NCBI GenBank assembly: GCA_012960305.1
Contig: DUBM01000014.1
Coordinates: forward strand, 434,001 to 498,000
Source of the DNA: Gammaproteobacteria bacterium
Lineage (GTDB): Bacteria > Pseudomonadota > Gammaproteobacteria > Pseudomonadales > Pseudohongiellaceae
Direction of reading: 5' to 3'
Length of the DNA stretch: 64,000 bases
Shown here: one piece after another, positions 45,419 through 60,797 of the stretch
Layout of the letters: each line of letters opens with the position of its first letter
Position numbering within the stretch: position 1 is the first letter of the stretch
Translations under genes and position numbers: made by a program
The notes under the pieces: model-generated
Seen by the model: only the letters and a program-made list of their open reading frames with translations
Databases searched by the model: none
What the model was told of the DNA's origin: nothing

Positions 45419-46924
45419 TTACTCAATTAGCTTAATCCAGTCGCCTTCATCAGGACTCCCGGAAGGATAGTAGCCATTCAGCAAGCGTAGCGTTTCTTCT
45501 GGGTAATTCACAATCTTGCTGGTCTTGGCTACCACCGCAAAATCAAAAAATTCGCTAGCTTGAACATATTTCAATTTTAATTCTGAGCCAGAATGGGTCT
45601 CGCCATTCTGTATCGCTCTGAAAGATCGAATAGAATCTAAAAGTAAGGCGTCTATATCATCTTTTATATTTGTATTATCTATCTCGCCACGGATTATAAA
45701 AACTCGCGGCCCATAATAAATAGCAGCGACTCGCTCAGTTTTACCCGTTTCAGGATTAACCGCAGTTCCGGTATGGCCAATCAGTCGGAACTGTTCTAAT
45801 CGCTCGGACTTCTGCAGGCTGGGGATTCCCATATTATCTCTAATAAAGATACGTGGCTCTATATTGTCTTGAAGTCGCTGAACCTCGACTTTTATTCGGC
45901 CAACACCTACAGATGCAGCCGCAACGGTTGTAGTGGTTTCAGACAATTCCCATTCATCTGGGAATACCAATGTATAATCAAGTAACGGCTGATAATATCG
46001 ATTGCGTGTCTCTTGAGTTTGCGAGCCTGCACTCGCTCCAACAATCAGGCCGTTCATATTAGTTCTAAATTTTCGGTTATCTGTTTCAGTAATCTGAATT
46101 TCTTCTAATTCTCCAACTGCTGCTATTGCTTCTTGAAGACGGGTATCATTGCGCGGATGCGTTGCAAACAAGCCATGATAACTTTGCGCACCATTAGAAA
46201 TACGCCGATTAAAATCTTCCTGGTTTTTAAGCACCGTTACGACTTGGATTACAGCTTGTGGGTCGTAACCAGCACTCACTAAATATTCTGCGCCGAGACT
46301 ATCAGCTTCTAACTCATGCTCACGACCAAAACCGCTTAAGCCAGTTTGTGCCCAGATTGAAGCCACTTCACTTATCTGAGACCCAACGTAGCCACTCCCG
46401 GTTGCCACAGCCGTAACAAAACCGCCCACACTCGCAGCGCCTCGAGCCAGAGCCCCTCTCGCTTGTTGCTGCACAGCATGGCGAGCGGTAATGTGGCCAA
46501 TCTCATGGGCAAGTACCGCTGCTAATTCGGCCTCCGAATTCATAAAAGTCAACAACCCGCGGTTTACATAAACGTAGCCGCCCGGCAACGCGAAAGCATT
46601 AATATCGGGGCTATCAATGATATGAAATTGATATTCAAGATTAGGCCGATGGCTTACATTCGCTACCTTCTCGCCTACTTCTCTTACATATTGCAAAAGC
46701 TCCTCGTCTTCAAATAAACGCTGGCTGCTGAGTACTTTCTCGTGTTCTTCCAGCCCAATTTCTTTCTCTTTATTCTCTGTCATGAGAACAAGATTGGGAC
46801 CACCAGTGGCAGGATTTATCGCACAGGAATTAAGAATCGGTAGGCCTAAGAGAAGTAAACCAAATAAAATATTTTTCATGTTAAGTATTGAGTTTAGATT
46901 TTTAATTAAGTCGAGTATTTTCAT
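45419..46924 (-). CDS. M48 family metalloprotease lipoprotein
   Basis: About 501 residues from the ATG at 46924, which follows AGGTGG; the ORF track begins 5 codons earlier and another ATG at 46879 gives a tidy signal peptide (MKNILFGLLLLGLPILNSC). The lipobox LNSC predicts a lipoprotein. The protease domain shows the zinc motif AAVLAHEIGHITARHAVQ and the third ligand in HELEADSLGAEYL, as in BepA/LoiP-type periplasmic proteases. The C-terminal ~200 residues (from about TRNRYYQPLLDYTLVFPDEW) form a second domain without a family I can name. Last gene of the 60.8-45.4 kb run. A role in quality control of outer-membrane or machine components is inference. Confidence 0.87.
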   Translation of the reverse strand: MKILDLIKNLNSILNMKNILFGLLLLGLPILNSCAINPATGGPNLVLMTENKEKEIGLEEHEKVLSSQRLFEDEELLQYVREVGEKVANVSHRPNLEYQFHIIDSPDINAFALPGGYVYVNRGLLTFMNSEAELAAVLAHEIGHITARHAVQQQARGALARGAASVGGFVTAVATGSGYVGSQISEVASIWAQTGLSGFGREHELEADSLGAEYLVSAGYDPQAVIQVVTVLKNQEDFNRRISNGAQSYHGLFATHPRNDTRLQEAIAAVGELEEIQITETDNRKFRTNMNGLIVGASAGSQTQETRNRYYQPLLDYTLVFPDEWELSETTTTVAAASVGVGRIKVEVQRLQDNIEPRIFIRDNMGIPSLQKSERLEQFRLIGHTGTAVNPETGKTERVAAIYYGPRVFIIRGEIDNTNIKDDIDALLLDSIRSFRAIQNGETHSGSELKLKYVQASEFFDFAVVAKTSKIVNYPEETLRLLNGYYPSGSPDEGDWIKLIE

Positions 46925-46964
46925 GGTTCCACCTGTCATTCTTTACGGATCGCCAAATTCTTAT

Positions 46965-47642
46965 TCAGTTACCAATTAAAAATTCTTTGAGTTGTGTGGC
47001 CAAACGACTACATGCGTTGGCTTCTACCCGAGCAATTAGCGGAATAGGTACAAAAAATGCGGGGATATATGATTGACCGGTAGCATCAGCATTTATTGTG
47101 CCGACTGAAGTTAATTCACCCACATCCCAAATTCTAGCGTCAAAGTTTGAGTCATCTTCCCAAGTACCAAAACCAAAGCAACCACCTCCGCCAGGGCCGA
47201 TTGCGCAGGTTAAGCTTCCCGACCGACCTGATTGTACGGTCGAACCATCAACCCACACGATATAACGTATACCGAAATCATTCATCTTTTCAGCGATAAC
47301 ATCTTCTGCCATCAACCTTTCTAAATCTTGTGTGCGCAGGGGAGCAGTTCGGGGCTCAAACCACGGAAACATCGCGTCGACAAATTCCTGCTCAGGCACT
47401 ACATTAATCGCGTTCTCCCCGCGATTCATTCCCTCGCCGACACAACTGATGAATTCAGAGCGAGTTTCATAATCACTAGCCTGTCGTCTACCAAGAATTA
47501 CAACGGACTCATCACTCTCAATGCCTGTTTCGCCCTGGCGAAATTCATCAACAGTTGTGCTGGTACAGGAGACAAACAACGTCAACAAAATTGAAGCTGA
47601 CAGTAGTCGAGTATGTTTCATAATTAAAAGATAGAGCTTCAT
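46965..47642 (-). CDS. Putative lipoprotein, family unknown
   Basis: A 225-residue protein starting at an ATG preceded by GAGG. The N-terminus has a signal peptide with a lipobox (LLTLFVSCTS). The mature part contains SDESVVILGRRQASDY, AEKMNDFGIRYIVWVDG, a Cys- and Gly-rich stretch (SLTCAIGPGGGGCFGFG) and DARIWDVGELTSVG. Short beta-rich segments are likely. I do not recognise the family; the ILG and YIVWVDG segments recall lipoproteins that sense or present a binding site in the envelope. Comes 25 bases after the preceding gene and 40 bases before the M48 gene, inside the long operon. Confidence 0.65.
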   Translation of the reverse strand: MKLYLLIMKHTRLLSASILLTLFVSCTSTTVDEFRQGETGIESDESVVILGRRQASDYETRSEFISCVGEGMNRGENAINVVPEQEFVDAMFPWFEPRTAPLRTQDLERLMAEDVIAEKMNDFGIRYIVWVDGSTVQSGRSGSLTCAIGPGGGGCFGFGTWEDDSNFDARIWDVGELTSVGTINADATGQSYIPAFFVPIPLIARVEANACSRLATQLKEFLIGN

Positions 47643-47667: not shown

Positions 47668-48276
47668 CTACAGATTACTTAACCAGGTTCGAACTTCAGG
47701 GACTTGGCCGAAACTGAGAGAAAAACTCGACGCCAAATCTCGTAATGCAACAATCGCCGCATCATTGATTGCTGCTTCGGTTGAGCGGAAAGTCTCAGCG
47801 GGAGTCTTTCCATAAGATGTCAGAACCCAATTTGCAATATAGTCACCTTCAGCGGTCAACAATCGCATGTTATATTTTATCCACACTTCATAAACATCAA
47901 GTTTCGTTTTTGCCGGCAACGCTAGTTGGAATTCCTCAATAGCAGGCGCAAAAATTGCATCGGCTCCAGTCGCTTGCACCTCCTCAATAGTATCGACGAA
48001 CACTACTTCATCGAACATTGCTGGCAGAACTGCATTGAACAATTGAATATGGGAGCCGCCACTTTCAATATTGAATTCTTCTTCACCAGTTTCGGTGTAC
48101 TCCATGAAAGAAAATTCACGGAGGGCGTCATCATAGATGACTGCCACAAATATGGGTAATTTGGCTATATTAGGAGTCGGAAAGCTGCCATCGATAACGA
48201 CATTGCTTACACCACAGCTCACGATAATCAACATCATTAGCGCCACGCCACAATTTTTCCATTTTTTAGTGTTCAT
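47668..48276 (-). CDS. Putative lipoprotein, family unknown
   Basis: From the ATG at 48276 about 202 residues; the ORF track begins six codons earlier at a TTG. A signal peptide ends in the lipobox LIIVSCG. The mature part has LPIFVAVIYDDALREFSFMEY, then IQLFNAVLPAMFDEVVFVDT and an alternation of strands and helices that recalls YajG-type or ABC-auxiliary lipoproteins. That resemblance is weak. The ends of this and the flanking genes are tightly spaced within the operon, between the second VWA gene (82 bases) and another lipoprotein (25 bases). Confidence 0.65.
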   Translation of the reverse strand: MNTKKWKNCGVALMMLIIVSCGVSNVVIDGSFPTPNIAKLPIFVAVIYDDALREFSFMEYTETGEEEFNIESGGSHIQLFNAVLPAMFDEVVFVDTIEEVQATGADAIFAPAIEEFQLALPAKTKLDVYEVWIKYNMRLLTAEGDYIANWVLTSYGKTPAETFRSTEAAINDAAIVALRDLASSFSLSFGQVPEVRTWLSNL

Positions 48277-48358
48277 TCTACATATGTTCCGCAATTTATT
48301 TTATTTCTAAGCCTTTACATTACTATTGTTTAAGGCCCAACCGGTAGTGTTTCGAGTC

Positions 48359-49366
48359 TTACTGATAATCGTTGAGACCAACAAATGTACCACCATTTCG
48401 AGATGTCATCTCTCGCATTAAAGTGGAATATCGGTAAACACTCTGATGAAACCTCTGGGGACCAGCAAATATGGTGGGAAAGCCGATTCCATGTATTCTC
48501 ACCAAACGATCTCCATTTTCATCTTCGACATTAATTCGGTCAATTGTTCGAAGCACGTCTTGAATAGACCCGCCAGGTTGGAAATCATCACCAAGAACGT
48601 AAATACTTATTTTTTTATCTGGCGCGTAGAAGGTATTAATTGCCCTCGTTACCCCTTCAACCGGACTGCTGTTGCTGTAAGGGTTCCAACTACGTAGGGT
48701 AGACATAATCTGAGTCCGCCGACCAGGGGTATCAGGTATCCACTCCCCTCTGTATGAATCGAACATGTAATCACCCATGTCATTCATTACTTGTATGCCC
48801 TTAACTTCAGGATAAACATTAAGCGTGTCATCAATAATACCAAGCATTTTGCTCCAACTTGGATTGTTAAACATGCTACCGGAGGTGTCTATTACAAAAA
48901 TTATATATTCGCTATCAACTGGAATACCACCAATAGCGTTGTTCTCAGGTGCTGCGCTGTTCGCTAGCAGACGCTGCATCTCGTCGGTCATGGACTGCTG
49001 CGCCAAAGATAATCGACCTATCTCATCAGTGGTTTCATCAGAGAGTTGACTGGATGTTTGGTATTCACCCTGAATGTCCGTGAGGTCACGGCGAAGGCGG
49101 GCAATACGGTCTTTCATTGCCGAAAGTTGCTCGTGTTTCGCATTCAAATCTCGATTATAAATTGTGGTTTCACCACGGATAGCAAAGAGTTGTTCCTGTA
49201 ATTCTACAATACTCCCTTCTGGATCAGGCACATCCACATATTCTATAGTTATTGGTGCTGCGGATTTTGTAATCATTAGAAGAATGATCATCGCACCAAA
49301 GCCACAGGCGGCAACGTCCAAGAAGGACACGGAAAATGAATCTGCTTCTCTATTCTTACGCTTCAT
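48359..49366 (-). CDS. ExbD/MotB-like membrane protein with periplasmic VWA domain (second copy)
   Basis: A 335-residue protein. Residues ~12-33 form one transmembrane helix with the motif FLDVAACGFGAMIILLM, containing an Asp where MotB, ExbD and ZorB carry their ion-binding Asp. A long coiled coil follows (about 45-135: EQLFAIRGETT, LSAMKDRIARLRRDL). The C-terminal ~190 residues are a von Willebrand A domain: YIIFVIDTSGSMF supplies the DxSxS metal site, and YVLGDDF the later Asp. It starts 3 bases after the first copy and shares the membrane motif with it. Predicted to be the partner of the MotA/TolQ protein three genes upstream. The exact cargo is unknown. Confidence 0.82.
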   Translation of the reverse strand: MKRKNREADSFSVSFLDVAACGFGAMIILLMITKSAAPITIEYVDVPDPEGSIVELQEQLFAIRGETTIYNRDLNAKHEQLSAMKDRIARLRRDLTDIQGEYQTSSQLSDETTDEIGRLSLAQQSMTDEMQRLLANSAAPENNAIGGIPVDSEYIIFVIDTSGSMFNNPSWSKMLGIIDDTLNVYPEVKGIQVMNDMGDYMFDSYRGEWIPDTPGRRTQIMSTLRSWNPYSNSSPVEGVTRAINTFYAPDKKISIYVLGDDFQPGGSIQDVLRTIDRINVEDENGDRLVRIHGIGFPTIFAGPQRFHQSVYRYSTLMREMTSRNGGTFVGLNDYQ

Positions 49367-49369
49367 AAT

Positions 49370-50470
49370 TTATGGCCAATCAGAAGACGGTGTTAAATAG
49401 GATCCCCGAGAGAATTGTGCCAGCTCCCAAAAAGCCGCTGAAGCACTGGGGTCGCCCTCCAATGGCATTAGTACAATGTTTATAGGCACACCCCGCGGAA
49501 GCTCTTCTACCGCTTCAGCATAGAGGTCCATACGCTCAGAAGGAGTCACCAGAGAATTTGACGAACCACGATCACTGAGAGTTGGCAGGCCATCGGTAAT
49601 GAGGAAAATATTATCAGGTGGCGGAGACATATTTGCTGCTGCTCTAAATATTCGCTCCATATTAGTTCCATTATTGGGCACGATACGTTTCACCGACTCG
49701 ATGGCTTGGTTTAGTTGATCTCTATCTGCCACTTCAAGCCATCGCCCCTCAGTACCTGGAATCACTGCCTCGTAGCCAGTATTAAAATTCAAAATCTGGT
49801 ATCTGCTAGTAACTGGGAGTTGTGTGCTAATCCAATCTACAGTTTGGACAACGCGTTGCCATTTAGGTGCTTCCCGCTTCCTTTCGTCAGACATATTGCG
49901 GGTTCTAATAATGTTTACGATGGTGCTATCCAGCATACTGGCGGAGCTATCTACGAGCACCAAAATCCGCTGCCCTCCAAGGTAAAGCCCGGAAAGATAC
50001 TGGCGGTTACCGTCTCCGAGAAACTGTCGCACACTATTGCCATCTTGTTCAAATGCACTAGCCTGAAGCCGCTGTAGCTCTTCTTCCAGTGCTCGTACGT
50101 CAGCTCGAAGTTTTTCGATGCTCTCTTCGGTAGCCAGACTGGAATTTTCCAATGCGGCTAACTCCTGCAGAAATGTATCTAGTTGCTGTTGGATCTGCCT
50201 GGCCAGTCCCTCGGCGGTGACCACGTCAAAATCTACGTCCGATAAAGTATTGCGCAGCTGCACCAAGCCAAGCTGACCTTGGTCTATCTCTTCCTGGAGA
50301 AGATTAATTTCTGCTGTTAATTCAGGATTACTCACTACATCTGCGACCGTGCTGGTGTGATCCAAAATTAAGAAAATCAAAATAACAGCACCAAAACCGC
50401 AAAACATGACATCCAAAAATGCCAAGCTAATTGGGTTCATTTTGCGACGATCAGATTTCTTACTAGGCAT
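49370..50470 (-). CDS. ExbD/MotB-like membrane protein with periplasmic VWA domain (first copy)
   Basis: A 366-residue protein. A basic start (KKSDRRK) leads into the helix SLAFLDVMFCGFGAVILIFLIL, sharing FLDVxxCGFGA with the second copy. The coiled coil spans about residues 50-150 (LLQEEIDQGQLGL, LRADVRALEEELQRLQ). The VWA domain has a full metal site: ILVLVDSSASM (DxSxS), NNGTNMERI (Thr) and FLITDGLPT (Asp). The protein overlaps the Hsp70-like gene by 8 bases. Together with the second copy it would form a heteromeric stator-like pair with the ExbB/MotA protein. The VWA replaces the OmpA-like peptidoglycan-binding domain that is usual in MotB and ZorB. Confidence 0.84.
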   Translation of the reverse strand: MPSKKSDRRKMNPISLAFLDVMFCGFGAVILIFLILDHTSTVADVVSNPELTAEINLLQEEIDQGQLGLVQLRNTLSDVDFDVVTAEGLARQIQQQLDTFLQELAALENSSLATEESIEKLRADVRALEEELQRLQASAFEQDGNSVRQFLGDGNRQYLSGLYLGGQRILVLVDSSASMLDSTIVNIIRTRNMSDERKREAPKWQRVVQTVDWISTQLPVTSRYQILNFNTGYEAVIPGTEGRWLEVADRDQLNQAIESVKRIVPNNGTNMERIFRAAANMSPPPDNIFLITDGLPTLSDRGSSNSLVTPSERMDLYAEAVEELPRGVPINIVLMPLEGDPSASAAFWELAQFSRGSYLTPSSDWP

Positions 50471-51890
50471 TGCTTACCTGTATCAACTGAATGTCTTCTG
50501 CATTCTCCGCGAATTTAACTCTGTCGCCGAGACCTAATTTTTGCTTTCCACTAACTTTCTTTTTGTTTAAGTAAAATTCCTGACTACCACTGTCTAAATA
50601 CAAATCTCCATCACTACTTTCCATGTGGCCTAATTGTTCTGGTAGTTCATCCAAAGACAGGACCAATGCATTTCCCCCGTCACCATTAAAAATTACATTA
50701 TTCTTGATCTGCAGCTTTTCCACTGCTATCGCTCTATTGGAATACAATGCATGGGTTGGGTTTGTCTCTACACTCTCTTCGATTCCTGTTTTAACTCGAT
50801 CGGCACCTTTATTTATCGCCACGCTTGTTTGAACTGATTCTTTGCTTGATTCGAGTTCCAAAACATCAGTGTCAGTATTTCCAGAACTGGTCTTGTCCAG
50901 GGGAAGAGTATTAACCAAATGAATTGAGTGCGCGTCAGCAAGGATGTGTTGCTGACTTTCCAAACAGGCTGAATTAATAGTCTCTGCATCCAGTATGTGT
51001 AGGTTGTTTGATTGTTTCAACGAAGAAACAAATCCTGGAAGTGCCGCAAGAGCGTTACTAACTAGCAGCTGAGTGTTTTTCTCTGTCGCCAACGCATCAA
51101 TTTGTTGATTAATTTTTTTGTAATAGTCGCCCAAGTTGTTTACCAAACTTTCCCGAGGCATTTTTGCAGTATGAACTGCACTACCAGTATTTAGTTCCAT
51201 CAACAAACTATTCTTGTTTTCATTATCTCTCTGTAGCCAACTTGGTAACGCGTTGTAAAGAAGCTGTTCTGAGTCGGCATTGTGTTGAGGATTGAATCGA
51301 CATTGTTGTATAAATAGATCGGTAGTTACCTGCATTAGCAAGTCCATAAAATTCTGAGAACCAACACCTGGAACCTGGATAACAGATTCTGTAGTTAGAG
51401 CTGAATCACTAATGGTTAATTTAGTGAGGAGAACTTGATGCAGCTGAATGTCGACATAGATTAACGAATGAGAATTTGCCACAGATACAGCTGCTGCCAG
51501 GGCTGAGTCAACTACCCCCAGTGGGGTAAAGGGGCATTGTTTTGCTAGACCTAAAAGAATTGCTAATTGCTGCCGAGTGAAATTCCCTGGCACAGCAAAA
51601 ATTACATCCCCATCGATATTTGCTTTTTCAGCGAGATGCATGAGGTGTGCGTAAGCGATATCAGCAAAATGTCGAATGCCATTGCCATGTGAAAGTGGCT
51701 CCATACTCAACTCATGCCAATACTTGTTGTAGCTGTCGGTTGGCTGCAGTCGTGCCTGCTGCTCGGCTGCCTCACCCAACTGCAAGCCGGTTCCTGCGGT
51801 TAGTGCAAAGCCTGGGCTTTGCAGCAGTAGTCCGCTGTCGTCGCCAACCTTGATAGCGCTATCGTTTAGCTCTATAACTTTTAGACTCAT
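50463..51890 (-). CDS. Degenerate Hsp70/actin-fold protein with FHA-like tail
   Basis: A 475-residue protein. The N-terminal ~310 residues have the order of Hsp70-like ATPases: SLKVIELNDSAIKVGDD, then VIFAVPGNFTRQQL, GVVDSALAAAVSVA, LIYVDIQLHQVLLTKL and VSNALAALPGF. The phosphate loops lack the usual glycines, so ATP hydrolysis is doubtful. A variable linker follows, then from about residue 395 a short FHA-like region (LQIKNNVIFNGDGGN, GHMESSDGDLYLDSG, VSGKQKLGLGDRVKF), which may bind a phosphopeptide. It sits between the ExbB/MotA gene (ATGA overlap) and the first VWA gene (8-base overlap). No transmembrane segment, so cytoplasmic; perhaps the cytoplasmic scaffold of the membrane machine. 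Confidence 0.7.
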   Translation of the reverse strand: MSLKVIELNDSAIKVGDDSGLLLQSPGFALTAGTGLQLGEAAEQQARLQPTDSYNKYWHELSMEPLSHGNGIRHFADIAYAHLMHLAEKANIDGDVIFAVPGNFTRQQLAILLGLAKQCPFTPLGVVDSALAAAVSVANSHSLIYVDIQLHQVLLTKLTISDSALTTESVIQVPGVGSQNFMDLLMQVTTDLFIQQCRFNPQHNADSEQLLYNALPSWLQRDNENKNSLLMELNTGSAVHTAKMPRESLVNNLGDYYKKINQQIDALATEKNTQLLVSNALAALPGFVSSLKQSNNLHILDAETINSACLESQQHILADAHSIHLVNTLPLDKTSSGNTDTDVLELESSKESVQTSVAINKGADRVKTGIEESVETNPTHALYSNRAIAVEKLQIKNNVIFNGDGGNALVLSLDELPEQLGHMESSDGDLYLDSGSQEFYLNKKKVSGKQKLGLGDRVKFAENAEDIQLIQVSNA

Positions 51891-52702
51891 AAATGACCAA
51901 CCCTTTCAGGAACTTGCAAGTGTCTTACCATTTTTTCATCGCAGTAATGTTGACAATCAAGCACCAGGCGGTCCTGTAATAGCTGTAGTTGATGGAGCAG
52001 AAACATCAATAAGATACTCACTAATAAGGCGACCCAAGTAGAGTTGAATGCCACACCAAGACTAACGGTGACGCCAACAATATCCCCGCTCACTGCTTGA
52101 TACGCTTGACCCAAGGCTGTACCAATCCCGCGCACCGTTCCAAGAAATCCTATAGAAGGAATAGCCCAAGCGATATAACGCACGATAGTCAATTCGGTTT
52201 CCATACGATCGGCTTCTATTTCGCAAGTGTCTTTCACTGTCGTTGAAACATCCTGAATATTTCGTGTTGTCTGAAATCGATGCAAGCCTCCAAGAATAGC
52301 TCGGGGCAGTAGATAAGCTTTTTCTTTCTCCGGCAATGCCTGAACTGGTCGCGCATAGTTACGCGAATCCTCCGGCAATATACTCATTCCGTCAGATACT
52401 TGTATTAAGGTCCTTTCAAGCAAGGCTCGTTCACGAAGAACCTGTTGTGTTTTCATGCCTATAATGGCCATAGCCCAGAGCAAGAGTATGATACAAAACT
52501 CTTGCTCCATATCTCGGAGAATAATATACACCGATCGTTCCGGTTCAAAATTCTCATCGGTCTGCTGCAGCAAATTCTGCTGCTCCTGTATCAAATCTGC
52601 ATTCGGTCTAATCACCGCGACATAGGCTGCATGCACGACTATTATCGCAGTTACTAATGCTGCAATTTGATATAGAGCTTCCGACATCAAACCTTCTTTC
52701 AT
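51887..52702 (-). CDS. MotA/TolQ/ExbB proton channel family protein
   Basis: A 271-residue membrane protein with four hydrophobic stretches. The first (ALVTAIIVVHAAYVAVI) is N-terminal and the second (FCIILLLWAMAIIG) follows a ~45-residue loop. After a long cytoplasmic region come the signature helices IAWAIPSIGFLGTVRGIGTAL and GVTVSLGVAFNSTWVALLVSILLMFLL, with the Pro, Gly and Thr/Ser residues typical of TolQ and ExbB. In known systems five such subunits surround a dimer of ExbD/MotB-type proteins and conduct ions. The two downstream VWA proteins supply a suitable partner helix. Starts at ATG 52702 after AAGGAA; an ATG five codons later (MSEALY) is also possible. Overlaps the next gene by ATGA. 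Confidence 0.87.
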   Translation of the reverse strand: MKEGLMSEALYQIAALVTAIIVVHAAYVAVIRPNADLIQEQQNLLQQTDENFEPERSVYIILRDMEQEFCIILLLWAMAIIGMKTQQVLRERALLERTLIQVSDGMSILPEDSRNYARPVQALPEKEKAYLLPRAILGGLHRFQTTRNIQDVSTTVKDTCEIEADRMETELTIVRYIAWAIPSIGFLGTVRGIGTALGQAYQAVSGDIVGVTVSLGVAFNSTWVALLVSILLMFLLHQLQLLQDRLVLDCQHYCDEKMVRHLQVPERVGHL

Positions 52703-52770: not shown

Positions 52771-53070
52771 CTAAATGTCTACCGGAAAAGAAACACCAAG
52801 GTCCTGTGAAATTTCTTCAGTTGGTATAAATCGGCGGCGAGATTGCTCTTGGTCATCTTCAACTTCGGCCAAAATTAGGTCTTCTCCTTCACCAATTGCT
52901 GCACTACTTTGATCTTCACCATCTGTGCTTTCCTGTTCACCTTTTGCAGCCTCAGCAAGCAATGAAGGCTGCTGTTGCTGTGGATCGTTTTCCGCAGCAA
53001 CGGTCAATCGAAGAAAAAATATTGTGGTAATTGGGAAAATTAATAACAAAATAAGTGTACGCATATTCAT
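52771..53070 (-). CDS. Small secreted acidic protein
   Basis: About 99 residues from the ATG at 53070; the ORF track starts three codons earlier. An N-terminal hydrophobic segment (RTLILLLIFPITTIFFLRL) is followed by AAEN, a plausible signal peptidase I site. The rest is Gln/Glu/Asp rich and probably disordered, ending SQDLGVSFPVDI. It overlaps the end of the PEGA gene, so the two are coupled. No family is recognised. A periplasmic adaptor or an anchored regulatory peptide is possible, but nothing in the sequence settles it. Confidence 0.55.
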   Translation of the reverse strand: MNMRTLILLLIFPITTIFFLRLTVAAENDPQQQQPSLLAEAAKGEQESTDGEDQSSAAIGEGEDLILAEVEDDQEQSRRRFIPTEEISQDLGVSFPVDI

Positions 53071-53075
53071 AATTC

Positions 53076-55154
53076 TCAAATGTCTTCTAGATATCGAGCC
53101 ACGCGAAAACCAACATCGTCTCGCGGCTCTTCGCCAAAATCTCTAAACGATAGACGCAATTCTGTAAGTGAACCATGAGCCCAACTGGAACCGCGAATCG
53201 TGTGAAATTGGCCCAGCTCTGGCCCCAGAGGGTCGATTTCTGTGCCTATTGATCCGACGGAGCCATAATAGTCATGCACCCACTCGGCTACATTTCCTGC
53301 CATGTCGTAAACTTCATAATAATTTGCATCGAATGATTCAATCGGCGAAGAGGCAAAATAGCCATCATTATAACCAAACATTATTTCGCCGAGGTAATGT
53401 TGCACAGTGATGTCAGCAAAGTTACCTGCATTCTCTGGAGGTGGTAATGTGCCCCCCCAAGGATATTTGAGTTGTGAGCCGCTCCCATCTGTTCGAGCAA
53501 TCCATGCCCACTCCGCCTCACTGGGAAGTCGATAACCGATGGAGTTCTGATTGAAACCAGAAATTTCCTCTCCTTCTACATCGTAAAACGGCTCAAGTGA
53601 TTCTTGCTCGCTAAGCCAATTGCAATACAGAGCTGCTTGGGTCCAACTGATTTGCACGACCGGTTGTGCTTCGTTATCTAGCGTCGTTCCTTCAATCGTA
53701 CCTGAAGAATGTTCACCGTCGAATAACCGATACTGCGAGTTACTCACTTCTGCGGTACTTATATAGAATGGTTTTTCTAGCCGTATTTCACGCAGGTTTT
53801 CATTTGGTCTCCTGCCTGCTTCTCTGCGAGAGGCGCCCATTGTGTAATCACCACCATAGAACAACTTCAGAGTCTGACCACCGGCGCTGCTAATAATTGG
53901 TAGGATTTGATCAATCCTTGCTTGCTCCAGTGATTTTAGTGAAACCTGTATTACCTGGTCCAATCCAGGGCGCGAGGTGAAATCATCGGTATAGGGCACG
54001 AAACCGTCTTTGCGGATTTCAATTTTCTGGCTCGCAGCCATTAGTTCGATGGTTTGATTTGCTAACCCTTTAAACTCGCCGTTCACATACAGCTCAGCGT
54101 CCGCAGGTTCAACAACTACGCTAACACTGGTAAGTATTGGATCGAGAACAATCGACATTTCTTTTTCTTGATTTGGTTCTGTGCGAATAGAACTCTTTCC
54201 TGAGTGATAGCCATTCTTAAAAAACGTGAGCTCATGATTAATGTCTGGCGCCAGAGCAACTTCAAGAGGAGTCAGTCCTTGAAATTCACCACCAATTGTG
54301 ACACTTGCAGCGCTAGGATCTGAACGCAGAAGCACTAGTCCGTCAGCTGGAATTAGATCAACTTGAGGCACTGCGAAATCTTGACCGGCGTAAATATCAA
54401 AATCCTCCTGCCAGGCTTTATGTCCTGCCAGTTTGATCATGATATCTCGATTCCCCTGAATTAATTCCGCATTCAATGGCGTAGTGCCGACTAATGCACC
54501 ATCAATTAAAACATCTGCACCACTCGGAGATGTGATTAAGCTAACTACGGCCCAAGCTGGTTCCAAGACTGCTTGGTAGCGCTGCTCTACCCTACGGCCT
54601 TCGATCTCTATGGTTTCGCTGTAATCCAGATAACGATCTCTTGAAAACGTAAGTTGGTGTTCGCCTGGTTCCACCGGGATATCTATTAAGGGTGTTAAAC
54701 CAAAATCTACGCTGTCTATTTGTACCCGCGCATCTTCCATATTCAACGTGACAAATGAAACCATCCCAGGTAATTTTCGCATAGTGAAAGGATGAATTTG
54801 AGCTTGCTCGGCACCGACTAATAATTGAGTTGCCATGTCGTGGTAGCCTTCGTTGCGCAAAGTTAAATCGTAGTTGCCAGAACGAATGAGATAGCGCTGA
54901 CCTAATTGGAAAGCAGGGCCTCCCACAATTTGTATTTCAGCAGTTATCGGGTCAATCTCAAGCGATACTGATCGCGCAGTTAATACGAAAAAAGCCGCTA
55001 TACCACTAATAGCCGCGAAGACAAACATAACTGCGTGAATCCAGCGAAAATTAAATGCGGCTTTAGACCCTTTCCCATCATGAGGGGTAAAGTCGATAGG
55101 GATTATGGGGTTAGTTAGCCCGCTAAGAGAATTAATATCTTCGTTGTTTGCCAT
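53076..55154 (-). CDS. PEGA-repeat membrane protein with formylglycine-generating enzyme (SUMF1) domain
   Basis: From the ATG at 55154 (after AGAAGG) about 692 residues; the ORF track starts 16 codons earlier. One transmembrane helix lies near residue 40 (FVFAAISGIAAFFVLTA). Four or more PEGA-type repeats follow, for instance PSGADVLIDGALVGTTPLN, PSAASVTIGGEFQGLTPLE and PADAELYVNGEFKGLA. The C-terminal ~240 residues are a FGE/sulfatase-modifying domain: YGGDYTMGAS, GYRLPSEAEWAWIAR, YDMAGNVAEWVHDYY, RGSSWAHG and DDVGFRVARY. The paired Cys of true FGE were not seen, so it may bind and not oxidise substrate. Starts 4 bases after the TPR gene stop. Likely periplasmic presentation arm of the operon's machine. 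Confidence 0.85.
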   Translation of the reverse strand: MANNEDINSLSGLTNPIIPIDFTPHDGKGSKAAFNFRWIHAVMFVFAAISGIAAFFVLTARSVSLEIDPITAEIQIVGGPAFQLGQRYLIRSGNYDLTLRNEGYHDMATQLLVGAEQAQIHPFTMRKLPGMVSFVTLNMEDARVQIDSVDFGLTPLIDIPVEPGEHQLTFSRDRYLDYSETIEIEGRRVEQRYQAVLEPAWAVVSLITSPSGADVLIDGALVGTTPLNAELIQGNRDIMIKLAGHKAWQEDFDIYAGQDFAVPQVDLIPADGLVLLRSDPSAASVTIGGEFQGLTPLEVALAPDINHELTFFKNGYHSGKSSIRTEPNQEKEMSIVLDPILTSVSVVVEPADAELYVNGEFKGLANQTIELMAASQKIEIRKDGFVPYTDDFTSRPGLDQVIQVSLKSLEQARIDQILPIISSAGGQTLKLFYGGDYTMGASRREAGRRPNENLREIRLEKPFYISTAEVSNSQYRLFDGEHSSGTIEGTTLDNEAQPVVQISWTQAALYCNWLSEQESLEPFYDVEGEEISGFNQNSIGYRLPSEAEWAWIARTDGSGSQLKYPWGGTLPPPENAGNFADITVQHYLGEIMFGYNDGYFASSPIESFDANYYEVYDMAGNVAEWVHDYYGSVGSIGTEIDPLGPELGQFHTIRGSSWAHGSLTELRLSFRDFGEEPRDDVGFRVARYLEDI

Positions 55155-55158
55155 GCTG

Positions 55159-56694
55159 TCACTGCCTTCTAGTGGCAACAATGCGTTCTTCACATTGCAC
55201 AACGACTGAATCAGGTGTTTGTCCGAAGCCTACTGTAAACTCTTCTCGAACCTCTCGATAACCAATGCGTTTTCCGACGGCAACATATCGCCCTGGCTTT
55301 AGAGAAATCGAACGCTGTTCGAATGTTCCCATGGTACCGATACGCAATAATGTGACATCGGTTAAGCTGTCTGAAACTAGATTAATATCAATCTCAACTT
55401 GTGAGCTTTCAAGTAGTGCTTCCAGCATGTTTAATTGGTTTTTTAAGCGAAATCCAGGTTGATCAATCGCTCTTCCAGTGTAATAAACATCTAAAGTTTG
55501 TTGAAAAACATCGTCCGCTGAAAAACGCTCCGGATTCTCAACAGCATCCACAAGTAGCCGATCCAATTGCGCCCGTTTACTCGCATTGTCACGACCATTG
55601 ATCGCAAAAATTAAATTTTCATCAATAAGTAAAACGTTTACATATTCGGCAACAGCTTCCTGCCAGCGCTCAGCTGCCTCGGCTTCATTGATTAATTCTT
55701 GCAGTGCATTAATCTCGGCGTTGGCTAGATCGTTTTCGGTTTGAGTAATTGCAGCCAACGCTTGGTCTTCATTTATACGTAATGTGGCAGCTCGTTGAAA
55801 TTCTGCAATGGCTTGGTCCGGGTCATCGGCCTCAAGAAACGCATAACCAATTGACATAATACCGACAAACTCATTCTCTAAAATCTGAGCAGCAACCGTT
55901 AAAAGTTTTTCCTGGGCCTGCTCGTTGTACTCATCTAGGTCTGCTATCTGTTGATATTGTGTTTCCGCTTTTTCCAGCTCGCCGTCTTCGAAGAAATCAT
56001 CTGCTGAGGTAAAGAGCTGGGTTACTTCATCCAAGGTCTGTGCTCTCCGCAGGCCAATTTTTGCTTCTTCATTTTCCGGATCCAGGAGTATTGCCAAGGC
56101 ATATTTTCCCTCTGCCAGAGTGGAATTTACCTCCAGCAAGGCTTTATCTGCATCAATCATGGTCTGCGCAAGAACCGTAGAAATGGAATCAATCAGCTCA
56201 GTTAAACCGACAAGACCCATAGAATAAGATTCCCGTGCGAGAACAAAATCTTGGGCGCGATAGTATTCATCGCCGATACTTGCCTGCTCTAGAGCAATGC
56301 TGTAGTCAGAGTCTCCCCAATCAGATACTTGCTGTGCCTCCAGTTTTTCTTGCCTTTGCAATAATTCTGCTAGCACGTCCTGTGCATTTTTCCGCTGCAA
56401 TGAGCGCTGAGCTTCTTCAAAAGGAGAAATGGTTGTAGAGGGATCAACTTGCTCTGCCGCTGGCTGACGTTCCGCAACTTCGACGCGACGCTCCAGAGGT
56501 AATTCGTATTCAGTTACTAAAACGGGAAGAACAAAGATAACAAACAGCGCGGCAACAAATAGACTTCCTAAACCAATCCAGACAATCACCGGTGGCTTAT
56601 TAGATTGCAGTTTCGCTGGTTGACTTGAAAATAATGGACTTTCATTGAGATCAAAATCAACGGGCTCTATCTTATCAATATCTTTGTCTGACAT
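55159..56694 (-). CDS. TPR membrane protein with PEGA-like C-terminus
   Basis: A 511-residue protein with a cytoplasmic start (~35 residues), one transmembrane helix (VIVWIGLGSLFVAALFVIFVLPVLV) and a periplasmic domain of helical repeats. TPR-type pairs are visible as DEYYRAQDFVLARESYSMGL, AEGKYALAILLDPENEEA, DDFFEDGELEKAETQY and AFLEADDPDQAIAEFQ. The last ~90 residues (RIGTMGTFEQRSISLKPGRYVAVGKRIGYREVREEF) resemble a PEGA unit like those of the next gene. It is 4 bases from the PEGA/FGE gene. The combination suggests a periplasmic scaffold; function unknown. Confidence 0.75.
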   Translation of the reverse strand: MSDKDIDKIEPVDFDLNESPLFSSQPAKLQSNKPPVIVWIGLGSLFVAALFVIFVLPVLVTEYELPLERRVEVAERQPAAEQVDPSTTISPFEEAQRSLQRKNAQDVLAELLQRQEKLEAQQVSDWGDSDYSIALEQASIGDEYYRAQDFVLARESYSMGLVGLTELIDSISTVLAQTMIDADKALLEVNSTLAEGKYALAILLDPENEEAKIGLRRAQTLDEVTQLFTSADDFFEDGELEKAETQYQQIADLDEYNEQAQEKLLTVAAQILENEFVGIMSIGYAFLEADDPDQAIAEFQRAATLRINEDQALAAITQTENDLANAEINALQELINEAEAAERWQEAVAEYVNVLLIDENLIFAINGRDNASKRAQLDRLLVDAVENPERFSADDVFQQTLDVYYTGRAIDQPGFRLKNQLNMLEALLESSQVEIDINLVSDSLTDVTLLRIGTMGTFEQRSISLKPGRYVAVGKRIGYREVREEFTVGFGQTPDSVVVQCEERIVATRRQ

Positions 56695-56757: not shown

Positions 56758-57966
56758 TTACAGCTCACTTGCCATACCAATATTTTCTGCATAAAGATCG
56801 GCTAAGATTTCTCGCCATTGGCCATACTGTTCTTCAACTGAACCGGTGAGAGTAATCGTGCGATCTTCGAGATTGATAACTTGAGGGGCTACTGCATTTT
56901 CTAAAGACTGACCAAGTTCTTCTAGAGCTTCCTGGTGAATCTTAGCTTCTGCTTGTTTATCGAATCCACTTTTAATTAGATAAGCACCCGCACTCGCAGC
57001 AATTGCGCCACCCGCTTGTGTAGCATAATTGCCACTGCTACTGGTCGCTGCTGCCAAACCGCCAACGACGGCAGCAGTACCGGCAATAAATCTTCGACGA
57101 GCTGAATCTCTAAGTTCTCGTAATTCGATTGTTTCAAAATAACTTTGCTCTCTCCAAGAATCATAAGGCACGCGCATTTGTCGTACATAGGTCGCATAAT
57201 AGTCTTGTACCGTATCAATAAACATAAAATCTCTTTCGCGAATATCCCGCACGCGATCAAGCAATGGATCAGTATCAGCCGGTAGTGACACTATTCGATA
57301 GTTACCTCGTCGATCCTGAGTCAGATACTGATCAAATAATTCGATTGAGAATCGCTGGGCAAACAAAATTTCTGAGATAGTTCGAATTTCAGTAATCTGC
57401 CCATCTGTCATGTTTTGCTGTCGGTAAACCAACAAATCATTGGCGATGTTGTTATAGATAACTTGGAAGGGGTCGTTCTGCTGCCGCTGGGTTGAGTCAT
57501 AGCTAAACTGACTGATGACTTCACTGTAAACTTTGGTATACCAAGCACGGCCGGTGGCATCAGAAACATTGACACGAATGCTCATCGATTCACCGTTGGA
57601 CTGAAGAATAGTTCCTTTTACTAATACATCCATGGGGCTGGAAGTGTTCGGCATCAGGCGAACGATTCCCCAGTTGCCAGAACGCTGAAGTGTTTCAGCC
57701 GTTAGATAAGGTGCGTAACGAGATTCTGCAATTCGAATCTCGTGATTCGTAGTCTCTTCTTCATTTCGTTTGATCTCGTCGATACCGGGATCAAAAGTAA
57801 AAACCCCTACATCGAGAAGTAAATCCTCGGGAACATCCTGACTATCAGAGACGATTGGTACGTAGCTTGTCGATTTAACAGTATGAGTTGCACAAGCACT
57901 GAAAAAAGTCGCAACTATCATAGCCAACATCGCGATACCAAACTGCTTAAAATATTGGGTCCTCAT
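56758..57966 (-). CDS. Putative lipoprotein with glycine-zipper segment
   Basis: A 402-residue protein. The signal peptide ends in the lipobox FFSACA. The mature part has VPEDLLLDVGVFTFDPGID and AESRYAPYLTAETLQRSGNWG, then DATGRAWYTKVYSEV. A glycine- and alanine-rich segment (FIAGTAAVVGGLAAATSSSG, then AGGAIAASAGAYLI, about residues 300-340) looks like a glycine zipper that could insert in a membrane. The end is helical (LYAENIGMASEL). No family recognised. It starts on the ATGA overlap with the Ser-rich gene and precedes the TPR gene by 63 bases. Confidence 0.65.
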   Translation of the reverse strand: MRTQYFKQFGIAMLAMIVATFFSACATHTVKSTSYVPIVSDSQDVPEDLLLDVGVFTFDPGIDEIKRNEEETTNHEIRIAESRYAPYLTAETLQRSGNWGIVRLMPNTSSPMDVLVKGTILQSNGESMSIRVNVSDATGRAWYTKVYSEVISQFSYDSTQRQQNDPFQVIYNNIANDLLVYRQQNMTDGQITEIRTISEILFAQRFSIELFDQYLTQDRRGNYRIVSLPADTDPLLDRVRDIRERDFMFIDTVQDYYATYVRQMRVPYDSWREQSYFETIELRELRDSARRRFIAGTAAVVGGLAAATSSSGNYATQAGGAIAASAGAYLIKSGFDKQAEAKIHQEALEELGQSLENAVAPQVINLEDRTITLTGSVEEQYGQWREILADLYAENIGMASEL

Positions 57967-59102
57967 TGGTCCTCACCTATGCCTGTATAGTTTCTGTACT
58001 CGTCCCAGAGCGCCTCACGCAATACTGGATCAGGCTCGCTCGTCGCGGCCTCTCTAAGTTGTCTTGCTACTACATCATCATCTCTGCCACCGGGTATATC
58101 TTCCGGTGGTGGAAAATTCTCCGGTGGGGGCGACGACGGAGCCCCACTGCTAATGGTTGGCATTGATTGCGCAACCCCAGCTGGAGCCCCTGCATCTTCC
58201 AATGTCTGCGGTTGATCTGCGGGGCTTCCACCACCGCCTCCACTAGCCCCGCCAATGGCAACACTGCCTGCAGCATTGCTTTCGTTCTGCGCACGTTCCC
58301 GTTCACTCAGTATAAAGCCATCAAATGCTTCATAGCCTTTTCGAAGTCGTTCATCGAGCACCGCTGCTCTCTCAGCAGCTGTCATCGCACCAGTATCTTG
58401 GCTAGTATTTCCAGACCTTGCGCCACTTAATACCCCAGAAGGCAATGTATCAAGGCTGTAATCCCCACTTGGCGCCGGTAAACTGTTGCCAGAAGATCTT
58501 GGTGCCCCACTACCTAAGTCTGCAGATGAACCATCTCGATTGCCATTTTCCACAGACTGCTGATCATCAGGGAAGCGGGATTGAGTTCCTGAATTCCGGC
58601 TTGGGCTGTCGCCTGCATTGTCCTGGTTTGAGTTACCTTGCTGGGAACCTGCTGACTGGGGAGCACCACCGGCCTGTGAGCGAGATTGAGATTCCTGCCC
58701 TGAACTTTGACCAACACTGGGGCTAGAGCTCGAACCTCCGGGCTGACTGCCACTCCCATTCGTGGACGCAGAACTGGCAGGGCTGGAACCTTGTTGTTGG
58801 CGGCCCTGTGCTGCGCCTGGTATTGCAGGCATTGCACTACTGGAGCTCTGACTACCACGGCTCGGAGAACCGCTTGACTGGGAACTTTGTGACGATTGCG
58901 AACTTCTTGAGCCCTGAGACTGGGAACTCGATGAACTCTGCTGAGAACTCGAAGAGCTTGAAGATGAGCTGGATGAAGGGCTCGGAGGCACTGGCGTACC
59001 GCTACTTGACGAGCTTTGAGATGTGGACTGGCAAGCCAGTAAAGCGGCACTCACACTCACAATTAAAAGTAATCGTACAAATGTTTTTGGCGTCTTAAAC
59101 AT
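57963..59102 (-). CDS. Ser/Gln/Gly-rich low-complexity lipoprotein
   Basis: From the ATG at 59102 about 379 residues (the ORF track begins at a TTG six codons earlier). The signal peptide ends in the lipobox ALLACQ. The next ~200 residues are almost pure Ser, Gln, Gly and Pro with runs of up to ten Ser, and contain no recognisable fold. Toward the end it becomes more ordered: SGAMTAAERAAVLDERLRKGYEAFDGFILSERERA and LREAATSEPDPVLREALWDEYRNY, likely helices. Such a chain could span the periplasm or peptidoglycan as a flexible tether. The gene overlaps the next by ATGA. The antisense and other-frame ORFs here are shadows of the repeats. Confidence 0.72.
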   Translation of the reverse strand: MFKTPKTFVRLLLIVSVSAALLACQSTSQSSSSSGTPVPPSPSSSSSSSSSSSQQSSSSSQSQGSRSSQSSQSSQSSGSPSRGSQSSSSAMPAIPGAAQGRQQQGSSPASSASTNGSGSQPGGSSSSPSVGQSSGQESQSRSQAGGAPQSAGSQQGNSNQDNAGDSPSRNSGTQSRFPDDQQSVENGNRDGSSADLGSGAPRSSGNSLPAPSGDYSLDTLPSGVLSGARSGNTSQDTGAMTAAERAAVLDERLRKGYEAFDGFILSERERAQNESNAAGSVAIGGASGGGGGSPADQPQTLEDAGAPAGVAQSMPTISSGAPSSPPPENFPPPEDIPGGRDDDVVARQLREAATSEPDPVLREALWDEYRNYTGIGEDQ

Positions 59103-59444
59103 AGCGTTATACCGGTCCAAAAATGCAATTCCTGATAGATTGAAGTGCTGCGTTTAGATGCACTTTTTATGGATTTTAGCGTACTTATCACGTTTTTACC
59201 GCAAGATAGGGACAAGACTACTAGTTGCGACGACTGCGAATATTAGCAATCTAGCAAAATACTTTTGCTGAACTATAAGGGAAGCAATGCGCATTCTCTT
59301 TCTAAATCTATACGAATTAAGTTCGCATTCCCGGCATCTAATTAGTGATAATTTTAAAAGTTGCGCGATGTAGTTCATAGCCCCTTAACCTTGGCTCAAT
59401 AGCAGATTAGACTACGCATCGATCGTACATCTTCGTCCTTACAA
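59103..59444. other. Intergenic region between two operon genes
   Basis: About 340 bases without a credible gene; the 60-residue ORF at 59196 has no ribosome binding site or family. It should hold the promoter of the Ser-rich gene cluster, but no clear -35/-10 pair was found. It is the longest gap in the 60.8-45.4 kb run, so the run may be more than one transcript. Confidence 0.45.
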
Positions 59445-60797
59445 TTAGTACCAATACCGAAAACGAAACTGCAGGTTATCTGATCTTACTCTTTTTCCAT
59501 CTTTCAACACCGGGCGAAAATGCGAATCCCTCAATACCCGGCGGACCTGCAACAATTGGCTTCGATTCGCATCGGTCTCTTCACTGAGAAGTCTAATATC
59601 ACGAACCACCCCATTTTCGGTAACGTCAAAAGCAAAGTCCGCAGAATCAAAATTTAATTCCGCACCGTCATTCAAGGCGGCATTTCTCGCAACTAGTTCA
59701 CCTATCTCACTGGCAAAAGTAGGTAGTGACTTTACCTGGCCGAAAAGTTGTTGAATTAATTCTGCGCCATTTTCCTGCTGTGACAGTAAATCCCAAGCTT
59801 CCTGATAATTCGTGGCCGCAGCTTGGCGATAGCGAAACATTAGGTGCCAGTCCCCTAAGTTAGTAACCGCTTCGGCAAATTCATAGGTACTGTCCGGAGC
59901 TGTTGAATAATATGTCGCTATTTCTGTGAGCGCGTCTTTACCAGCGTTAAAGCCGCGAGGACGTGAGCCCCCCCGCTGATTCAGAGATAAGCGTAGCCTT
60001 TCCAAATCTTCTACATACCGAGACTGGCTTGCTTCGACAGCGAGGTCTGGATTTAAGGAAACCAAATAGGCGGAGTTTGCGATGCTAAGTAAAAAATCCA
60101 CGAATCGTTCATCATTCTTACCAAAGTGTTTAATAACCATGCGAGCCCCGGTGAGAAAGAGCATTTGCGCAGCGGCTAGCCTGACACCAAGAGCATTGCC
60201 GTAGCCAATATGAAAGGCTTGAATATTCCAATGGCCTAATCTATCCAACTCCGAAATCATTCTCGGATCATCTAAGCCATAGGCTTTCTGATGAACATAA
60301 AACAGATAGTTATAAAATAAATCTGTTTTCCCCCAGTCCCCCACTGCCATGTGGCTTTCAATTAGACCCTCGATTAGCGGAATTTGTTCGGCTGTATGCA
60401 GCCCAGAATTAATTCGATTCACATGGATCGCACGATCGAACGAATTGATGGCTTCGAGGTGCTGGCCCTGTTGCTGTTGTAAATTTGCCAGCGAAGCTAA
60501 TAGCTCAACTAATCCGACATCCCAAACACCATTACCAGATTCGAGTTCAGTAACTGAATTGCTGTAAAGGTCAATCGATGCCATCCTGGCCCCGAACTCT
60601 GAATCGTCCTCTGGATTGCTGGGCTGGAAAGGCAGAGCCAACTGAGGTTCAGCATCGGGCTGCAGCAGTAATGGTGTTTCAACATACAACACTGCTGGCC
60701 GCGTCTGAGTTGCAACCTCGCTCTCAACCGCTGTAGTGTCAGAGGGGTCACTTTGCTGCGCCCATGCCCCACCATTGGCTAATAGCATGGCGGCCAC
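59445..60797 (-). CDS. TPR protein with TonB-like C-terminal segment
   Basis: A 450-residue exported protein. With the GTG start the N-terminus is MAAMLLANGGAWAQ; an in-frame ATT 21 bases upstream would give a better signal peptide (RSFGIVAAMLLANGGAWAQ). TPR-like helices are seen as LASLANLQQQQGQHLEAINSFDRA and AVTNLGDWHLMFRYRQAAATNYQEAW. The last ~80 residues (ADFAFDVTENGVVRDIRLLSEE, RVLRDSHFRPVLKDGKRVRSD) match the TonB C-terminal pattern used to contact partner proteins. First gene of the minus-strand run, more than 320 bases upstream of the next. Could link the ion-driven machine to an outer-membrane partner; this is inference. Confidence 0.7.
   Translation of the reverse strand: MAAMLLANGGAWAQQSDPSDTTAVESEVATQTRPAVLYVETPLLLQPDAEPQLALPFQPSNPEDDSEFGARMASIDLYSNSVTELESGNGVWDVGLVELLASLANLQQQQGQHLEAINSFDRAIHVNRINSGLHTAEQIPLIEGLIESHMAVGDWGKTDLFYNYLFYVHQKAYGLDDPRMISELDRLGHWNIQAFHIGYGNALGVRLAAAQMLFLTGARMVIKHFGKNDERFVDFLLSIANSAYLVSLNPDLAVEASQSRYVEDLERLRLSLNQRGGSRPRGFNAGKDALTEIATYYSTAPDSTYEFAEAVTNLGDWHLMFRYRQAAATNYQEAWDLLSQQENGAELIQQLFGQVKSLPTFASEIGELVARNAALNDGAELNFDSADFAFDVTENGVVRDIRLLSEETDANRSQLLQVRRVLRDSHFRPVLKDGKRVRSDNLQFRFRYWY

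Follow-up and report, generated by a model that had tools for sequence, protein, structure and literature searches.

VWA_A and VWA_B, two adjacent proteins encoded in the window (the whole stretch of 64,000 nucleotides that was analyzed, from a gammaproteobacterium of the Pseudohongiellaceae), are likely to serve as the rotor dimer (probably a heterodimer) of a 5:2 proton motor, with VWA heads that would act on partners in the envelope. Motors of the 5:2 type power flagella, the import of nutrients, the upkeep of the envelope, gliding, and defence against phages; those that have been well studied use a homodimeric rotor with an Asp-bearing helix. A rotor of two different VWA proteins, if true, would show one motor presenting two different grips. 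Sequence gives good support to the motor core, and from it we infer the 5:2 assembly, the heterodimer, the rotation, the binding by the VWA domains, the partners, and the gating. Computed here were the homology of the pair, the invariant Asp, the ring Thr residues, the lack of an ExbD partner, the co-conserved operon, and the co-occurrence of kinase and FHA domains in relatives.

VWA_A (366 aa; 49370..50470, minus strand) consists of a basic N-terminal tail, a transmembrane helix, a coiled coil, a periplasmic VWA domain, and a conserved DWP/WP end, and VWA_B (335 aa; 48359..49366, minus strand) has the same layout. The ORF check at 48359-50470 upheld the claim of the earlier note that two adjacent minus-strand ORFs share a helix motif, and the gap between them is 3 bp. 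A sequence search with VWA_A alone recovered the N-terminal half of VWA_B (E 2e-6), and a profile-profile comparison aligned the two over about 300 columns with 99.8% probability (E 1.4e-28). Judged by their sequences, VWA_A and VWA_B are homologous sister proteins that arose by a true duplication, and given the length of the profile match, the common motif is the best-kept part of this duplication and not a coincidence. The homologues of VWA_A end in WP, usually DWP (49373-49381 in the window), which suggests a functional C-terminal end.

VWA_A matches the Pfam family VWA_2 (E 6.7e-9). The Pfam profile search gave no VWA match for VWA_B itself and found one in 6 of 15 VWA_B homologues. The AlphaFold2 monomer model of VWA_B (mean pLDDT 70, with the helix at low confidence) retrieved VWA folds in a structure search (E about 1e-7), and a search of the PDB with its sequence gave coiled coils for the most part, with weak matches to integrin I-domains. 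According to the alignments, the metal-site residues are complete in both proteins, namely, D174-x-S176-x-S178/T269/D293 in VWA_A and D160-x-S162-x-S164/S233/D260 in VWA_B, where a Ser takes the place of the Thr of VWA_A. The coiled coil and the VWA domain with DxSxS that had been ascribed to each protein were both recovered. Pfam and structure searches showed a VWA fold in place of a peptidoglycan-binding domain, which is absent from both proteins, and Pfam gave no match of either protein to the ExbD/TolR profile PF02472.

Hydropathy and alignment place the rotor (transpore) helix at about residues 13-36 of VWA_A (50363..50434, minus strand; hydropathy peak of 2.64 at residues 18-36) and about residues 12-34 of VWA_B (49265..49333, minus strand; peak of 2.18 at residues 15-33). 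The helix motif FLDxxxCGFGA reads SLAFLDVMFCGFGAVIL in VWA_A, with Asp20 (codon 50411-50413), and SVSFLDVAACGFGAMII in VWA_B, with Asp17 (codon 49316-49318). The Asp is constant in 103 of 103 VWA_A copies and in all 95 readable copies of VWA_B, mostly from gammaproteobacterial relatives of the window belonging to many families; the flanking positions vary, and the Asp was free to vary in the search. A lack of this conservation would have counted against a motor. Six further rows of VWA_B, unreadable owing to a wrong frame, a fused ORF call, or a run of N, stand outside the count; XLDVASCGFGA can still be made out in one of them. In a distant class of homologues, CGFGA is replaced by SGLGA and SAFAA with FLD retained, so that the motif Cys, which is Ser in both proteins there, is not universal, and the Asp is invariant even next to this substitution. 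The ExbD/TolR helices of the same genome are TPMLDVVFILLIFF and VPYIDVMLVLLIVF, from which it follows that the Asp of the VWA pair lies at the same relative place. The earlier note was right in putting the Asp within the membrane helix; however, it is not in the middle but in the first third, near the cytoplasmic end, as in ExbD and TolR.

The candidate channel is MOT, a 271-aa TolQ/ExbB-like subunit (51887..52702, minus strand) whose gene sits two genes upstream of VWA_A. It has a clear Pfam match to MotA_ExbB (2.7e-13) beside only weak similarity to the solved TolQ (E 0.014). Its T189 and T222 align with T145 and T178 of TolQ, and both are invariant in 23 diverse homologues. Profile searches of the genome's contigs found five MotA/ExbB and four ExbD matches but no ExbD-family gene on the contig of the window, which makes the VWA pair the obvious candidate rotor. 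The proposal that the helix is of the MotB/ExbD/TolR kind, with an ion-binding Asp, is therefore supported by the invariant Asp and by a neighboring TolQ/ExbB-like protein that keeps both ring Thr residues without an ExbD of its own. Elsewhere in the genome, an ExbD-family gene at G000:C11:279891-280274 (L196) has no MotA/ExbB match on its contig.

The pairing of heterologous TPH-vWA proteins next to a lone tolQ has been described for Proteobacteria and Verrucomicrobia in PMC12204202 (Mol Biol Evol 2025, section 8, Fig. 4c-d), which includes an AF3 model of such a pair inside TolQ-like pentamers and uses the same Asp and Thr argument. The central idea of the earlier note is thus confirmed but not new, and the novelty it saw in the arrangement does not stand after this 2025 publication. 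The window shares with the TPH-vWA description the adjacent, differing TM-anchored VWA proteins, the conserved TolR-like Asp helix, the Thr-ring TolQ-like neighbor without tolR, exbD, or motB, and the occurrence in Proteobacteria, a likeness in the features described for the family, whose reference locus in that paper is from Idiomarina. Unlike in the part of PMC12204202 that presents the TPH-vWA family, where they go unmentioned, genes for PEGA-FGE, TPR-kinase, Hsp70-FHA, and lipoproteins are documented here. This wider conserved gene set, with a kinase and a phospho-reader in relatives, seems to be undescribed in print and is, together with the kinase-FHA switch, the part worth following, the motor core being already published. 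No phenotype for the cluster was found in the literature searched, the scope of which did not extend to subscription papers and preprints.

In a survey of more than 100 loci, contigs of sufficient length show the gene order SQ385-lp402-TPR511-FGE-(s102)-MOT-(ASK475)-VWA_A-VWA_B, apart from a few rearrangements (MOT is moved in L152 and reversed in L127). The conserved cluster comprises 7-12 genes. All its members in the window are on the minus strand. The first gene of the core, recognized by synteny, is SQ385 (57963..59120), which encodes a Ser/Gln-rich low-complexity lipoprotein-like protein; it is among the most constant members, although some distant copies have only about 200 aa. It is followed by the lipoprotein lp402 (56758..57966; synteny, FSAC lipobox) and by TPR511 (55159..56694), a TM-anchored protein of 511 aa in which Pfam recognizes TPRs. 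Profile searches and alignment describe FGE (708 aa, 53076..55202) as a TM anchor, PEGA repeats, and an FGE/SUMF1-like domain. All 13 copies inspected have no Cys in the C-terminal catalytic region, and with the catalytic Cys pair missing, an active formylglycine-generating enzyme was rejected. The next gene, s102 (102 aa, 52771..53079), known from synteny, would encode a small conserved periplasmic or membrane protein with an N-terminal hydrophobic segment. ASK475 (475 aa, 50463..51890) is a predicted cytoplasmic protein with an FHA-like C-terminus, and its gene overlaps those of both MOT and VWA_A by a few bases, as TPR511 overlaps FGE, which suggests that these genes are translationally coupled. 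In the groups of the window and its neighbors, including Pseudohongiella, Halieaceae, and Microbulbifer, the accessory lipoproteins lp208 (47668..48294; IVSC lipobox) and lp225 (46965..47642; FVSC lipobox) then follow by synteny, as does an M48 metalloprotease with a lipoprotein-like N-terminus (45419..46939; Peptidase_M48, 4.7e-38). More distant lineages keep the core of seven genes and may be without ASK475 and s102. Pfam searches with relatives of lp402, SQ385, lp208, lp225, and s102 gave nothing usable. Beside the operon, a TPR-like secreted protein, e450 (59445-60797, minus strand), is kept in the groups of the window and its neighbors; by eye, its C-terminal part resembles a TonB-CTD, but it matches no Pfam family.

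The system is present in 128 of 137 genomes of the window's family (91 of the 92 good ones); for a related order, which two surveys covered, the share is about 86%. In a phylum-wide draw, 13 of 397 genomes matched, one of the 13 falsely. The match in genome G461 (L173, L189) was rejected, being confined to the coiled-coil region without the motif or the operon. Nearly all members of at least one marine gammaproteobacterial family thus have the cluster, which is also common in a related order. For this reason, and then because of the lipoproteins and the M48 protease downstream, we prefer envelope maintenance or export over surface motion as its cellular role.

Several other explanations were considered. 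If the helix were a signal sequence, or a lipobox in VWA_B, whose residues 18-21 are VAAC, the proteins would be exported and unconnected with the channel. This has next to no probability, since the invariant Asp would fall within the hydrophobic core of such a signal, the motif Cys precedes the longest run of hydrophobic residues, VWA_A has no lipobox, and the Cys is replaced in both proteins of the distant class. The helix does not resemble a signal peptide that would be cleaved, or the signal of a lipoprotein, and the Asp conservation and the Cys-to-Ser change led us to discard both readings. It is also very improbable that the VWA pair are side-bound force transducers like TonB or TolA and that the actual rotor is an unseen ExbD encoded elsewhere. 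Side-bound proteins of this kind do form a separate vWA family (PMC12204202), and the ExbD-family gene on contig C11 might seem to be available; however, the side-bound family, as that paper portrays it, carries an SHLS/His motif and adjoining tolR-like genes, whereas the VWA pair has the Asp motif and lacks tolR-like neighbors.

Instead of one heterodimer, the rotor could be two homodimers (A:A and B:B) that exchange in the same MOT pentamer. VWA_A and VWA_B each have a full helix and coiled coil and could dimerize alone, and for AglQ/AglS an exchange of homodimers is likewise still conceivable (PMC9389320). We nevertheless consider this unlikely, because at almost all fully read loci the two genes are direct neighbors, the published model uses heterologous pairs (PMC12204202), and the mirrored divergence of the two proteins fits an obligate pair. 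In the tree, a single edge with support 1.0 divides VWA_A from VWA_B, and their distances mirror each other with r 0.95 over 45 loci, although the mirroring could reflect shared species history only. Co-presence and mirrored trees thus lend indirect support to the heterodimer predicted from the sequence. A Zorya-like or other anti-phage defence system was suggested by the likeness of a MotA-like channel with an Asp-helix partner to ZorAB. ZorAB differs from the window in having a PG-binding domain instead of VWA, one partner instead of two, and a defence context. PADLOC gave no meaningful match, only weak coiled-coil ones, no plasmid or phage copy was found in a mobile-element search, no nuclease or helicase lies alongside, and the system is core and not patchy within the window's family. 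We therefore rejected defence, which has hardly any chance of being correct, and with it the ZorB identity that the earlier note had given to the two proteins.

For the favored motor with a VWA rotor, the following mechanism can be proposed. The single helices of VWA_A and VWA_B would sit in the pore of the MOT pentamer, where protonation and release of Asp20/Asp17 against the Thr ring of MOT could turn the VWA dimer. The periplasmic coiled-coil shaft would bear two different VWA heads, whose metal sites may grip or pull partners in the periplasm or outer membrane encoded by the same operon, namely, the PEGA-FGE protein, the TPR protein, lp402, and SQ385. ASK475 might serve as a cytoplasmic platform and Hsp70-fold adaptor. 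In related lineages, the kinase of the TPR protein and the FHA domain of ASK475 would gate assembly or activity, a gate that appears to be absent or decayed in the lineage of the window.

The AF2 model of ASK475 (pLDDT 82) has the fold of an Hsp70 nucleotide-binding domain according to Foldseek (best E 1e-16). The usual glycine-rich phosphate loops were not recognizable in an alignment read by eye, and the protein may therefore be a pseudo-ATPase. In its homologues from the related order, Pfam recognizes the tail as a canonical FHA domain (E about 1e-11 to 1e-13). Most TPR proteins of that order have a Ser/Thr kinase at the N-terminus (Pkinase E 5e-38 in L226), and in most of these the motifs of a kinase (Lys, HRD-type, and DFG) are intact. 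Among 46 loci, 17 have kinase and FHA, 2 the kinase only, none FHA only, and 27 neither; one of the two kinase-only loci, L223, was counted from a weak local match that Pfam does not confirm. The Fisher value of 1e-10 for this co-occurrence is overstated, since the loci are related and not independent. PP2C phosphatase genes lie near three of the loci. In the window's lineage, TPR511 is without a kinase and the FHA domain of ASK475 is degraded. We give about even chances to a distinct and self-contained trans-envelope machine in which the VWA pair acts as rotor and which consists of two lipoproteins, the inner-membrane TPR protein, PEGA-FGE, the TolQ-like channel, the VWA heterodimer, and the Hsp70-fold adaptor, its fuller form being switched by the TPR-borne Ser/Thr kinase, read by the FHA domain of the adaptor, and reset by PP2C. 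If true, the machine would be a 5:2 motor under phospho-regulation, of a kind for which no description was found, and with a dedicated kinase-FHA switch, the control of such motors could be tested directly. Genome G806 carries two copies of the system, L227 (G806:C9) and L228 (G806:C8), one with kinase and FHA and the other with neither kinase nor ASK475, and is a natural test pair for the role of the switch.

Compared with TolQR/ExbBD, the system has the same channel Thr pair, a single rotor helix with its Asp close to the cytoplasmic end, and a weak aligned sequence match, but it differs in its coiled-coil VWA heads in place of the small ExbD/TolR domain, its two rotor proteins, and an extra N-terminal helix of MOT. 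In the AglRQS gliding motor of Myxococcus, a single TolQ-like protein likewise has two Asp-helix partners that differ from each other; however, no Agl/Glt partner genes were recognized at the window locus, and to our knowledge, AglQ and AglS have no VWA domain. GldKLM of type IX secretion and gliding is likewise a motor with an FGE-fold protein, and GldK is the named family nearest to the FGE domain of the window (E 4.5e-29), although the score of 102 bits is below the curated cut-off of 350 bits and does not make it a GldK. Moreover, the window FGE is apparently anchored in the inner membrane and has PEGA repeats, and no T9SS genes were recognized in the operon. The threonine-phosphorylation pathway of T6SS (PpkA/PppA/Fha) resembles the arrangement in the related order, where a Ser/Thr kinase, an FHA protein, and sometimes a PP2C stand beside an envelope machine, but here the kinase is fused to TPR and FHA to an Hsp70 fold, and the window copy lacks the kinase. 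A T6SS part was rejected, there being no T6SS sheath gene in the genome.

VWA_B-type VWA domains also occur away from the motor operon, where in sister species they are fused to a BlaR1/M56 peptidase (PF05569) at L218:7084-8799 (plus strand; E 5e-42) and L220:4093-5868 (plus strand; E 1e-48). A short lipoprotein-like, stand-alone copy of the same domain type lies at L219:8174-8923 (minus strand).
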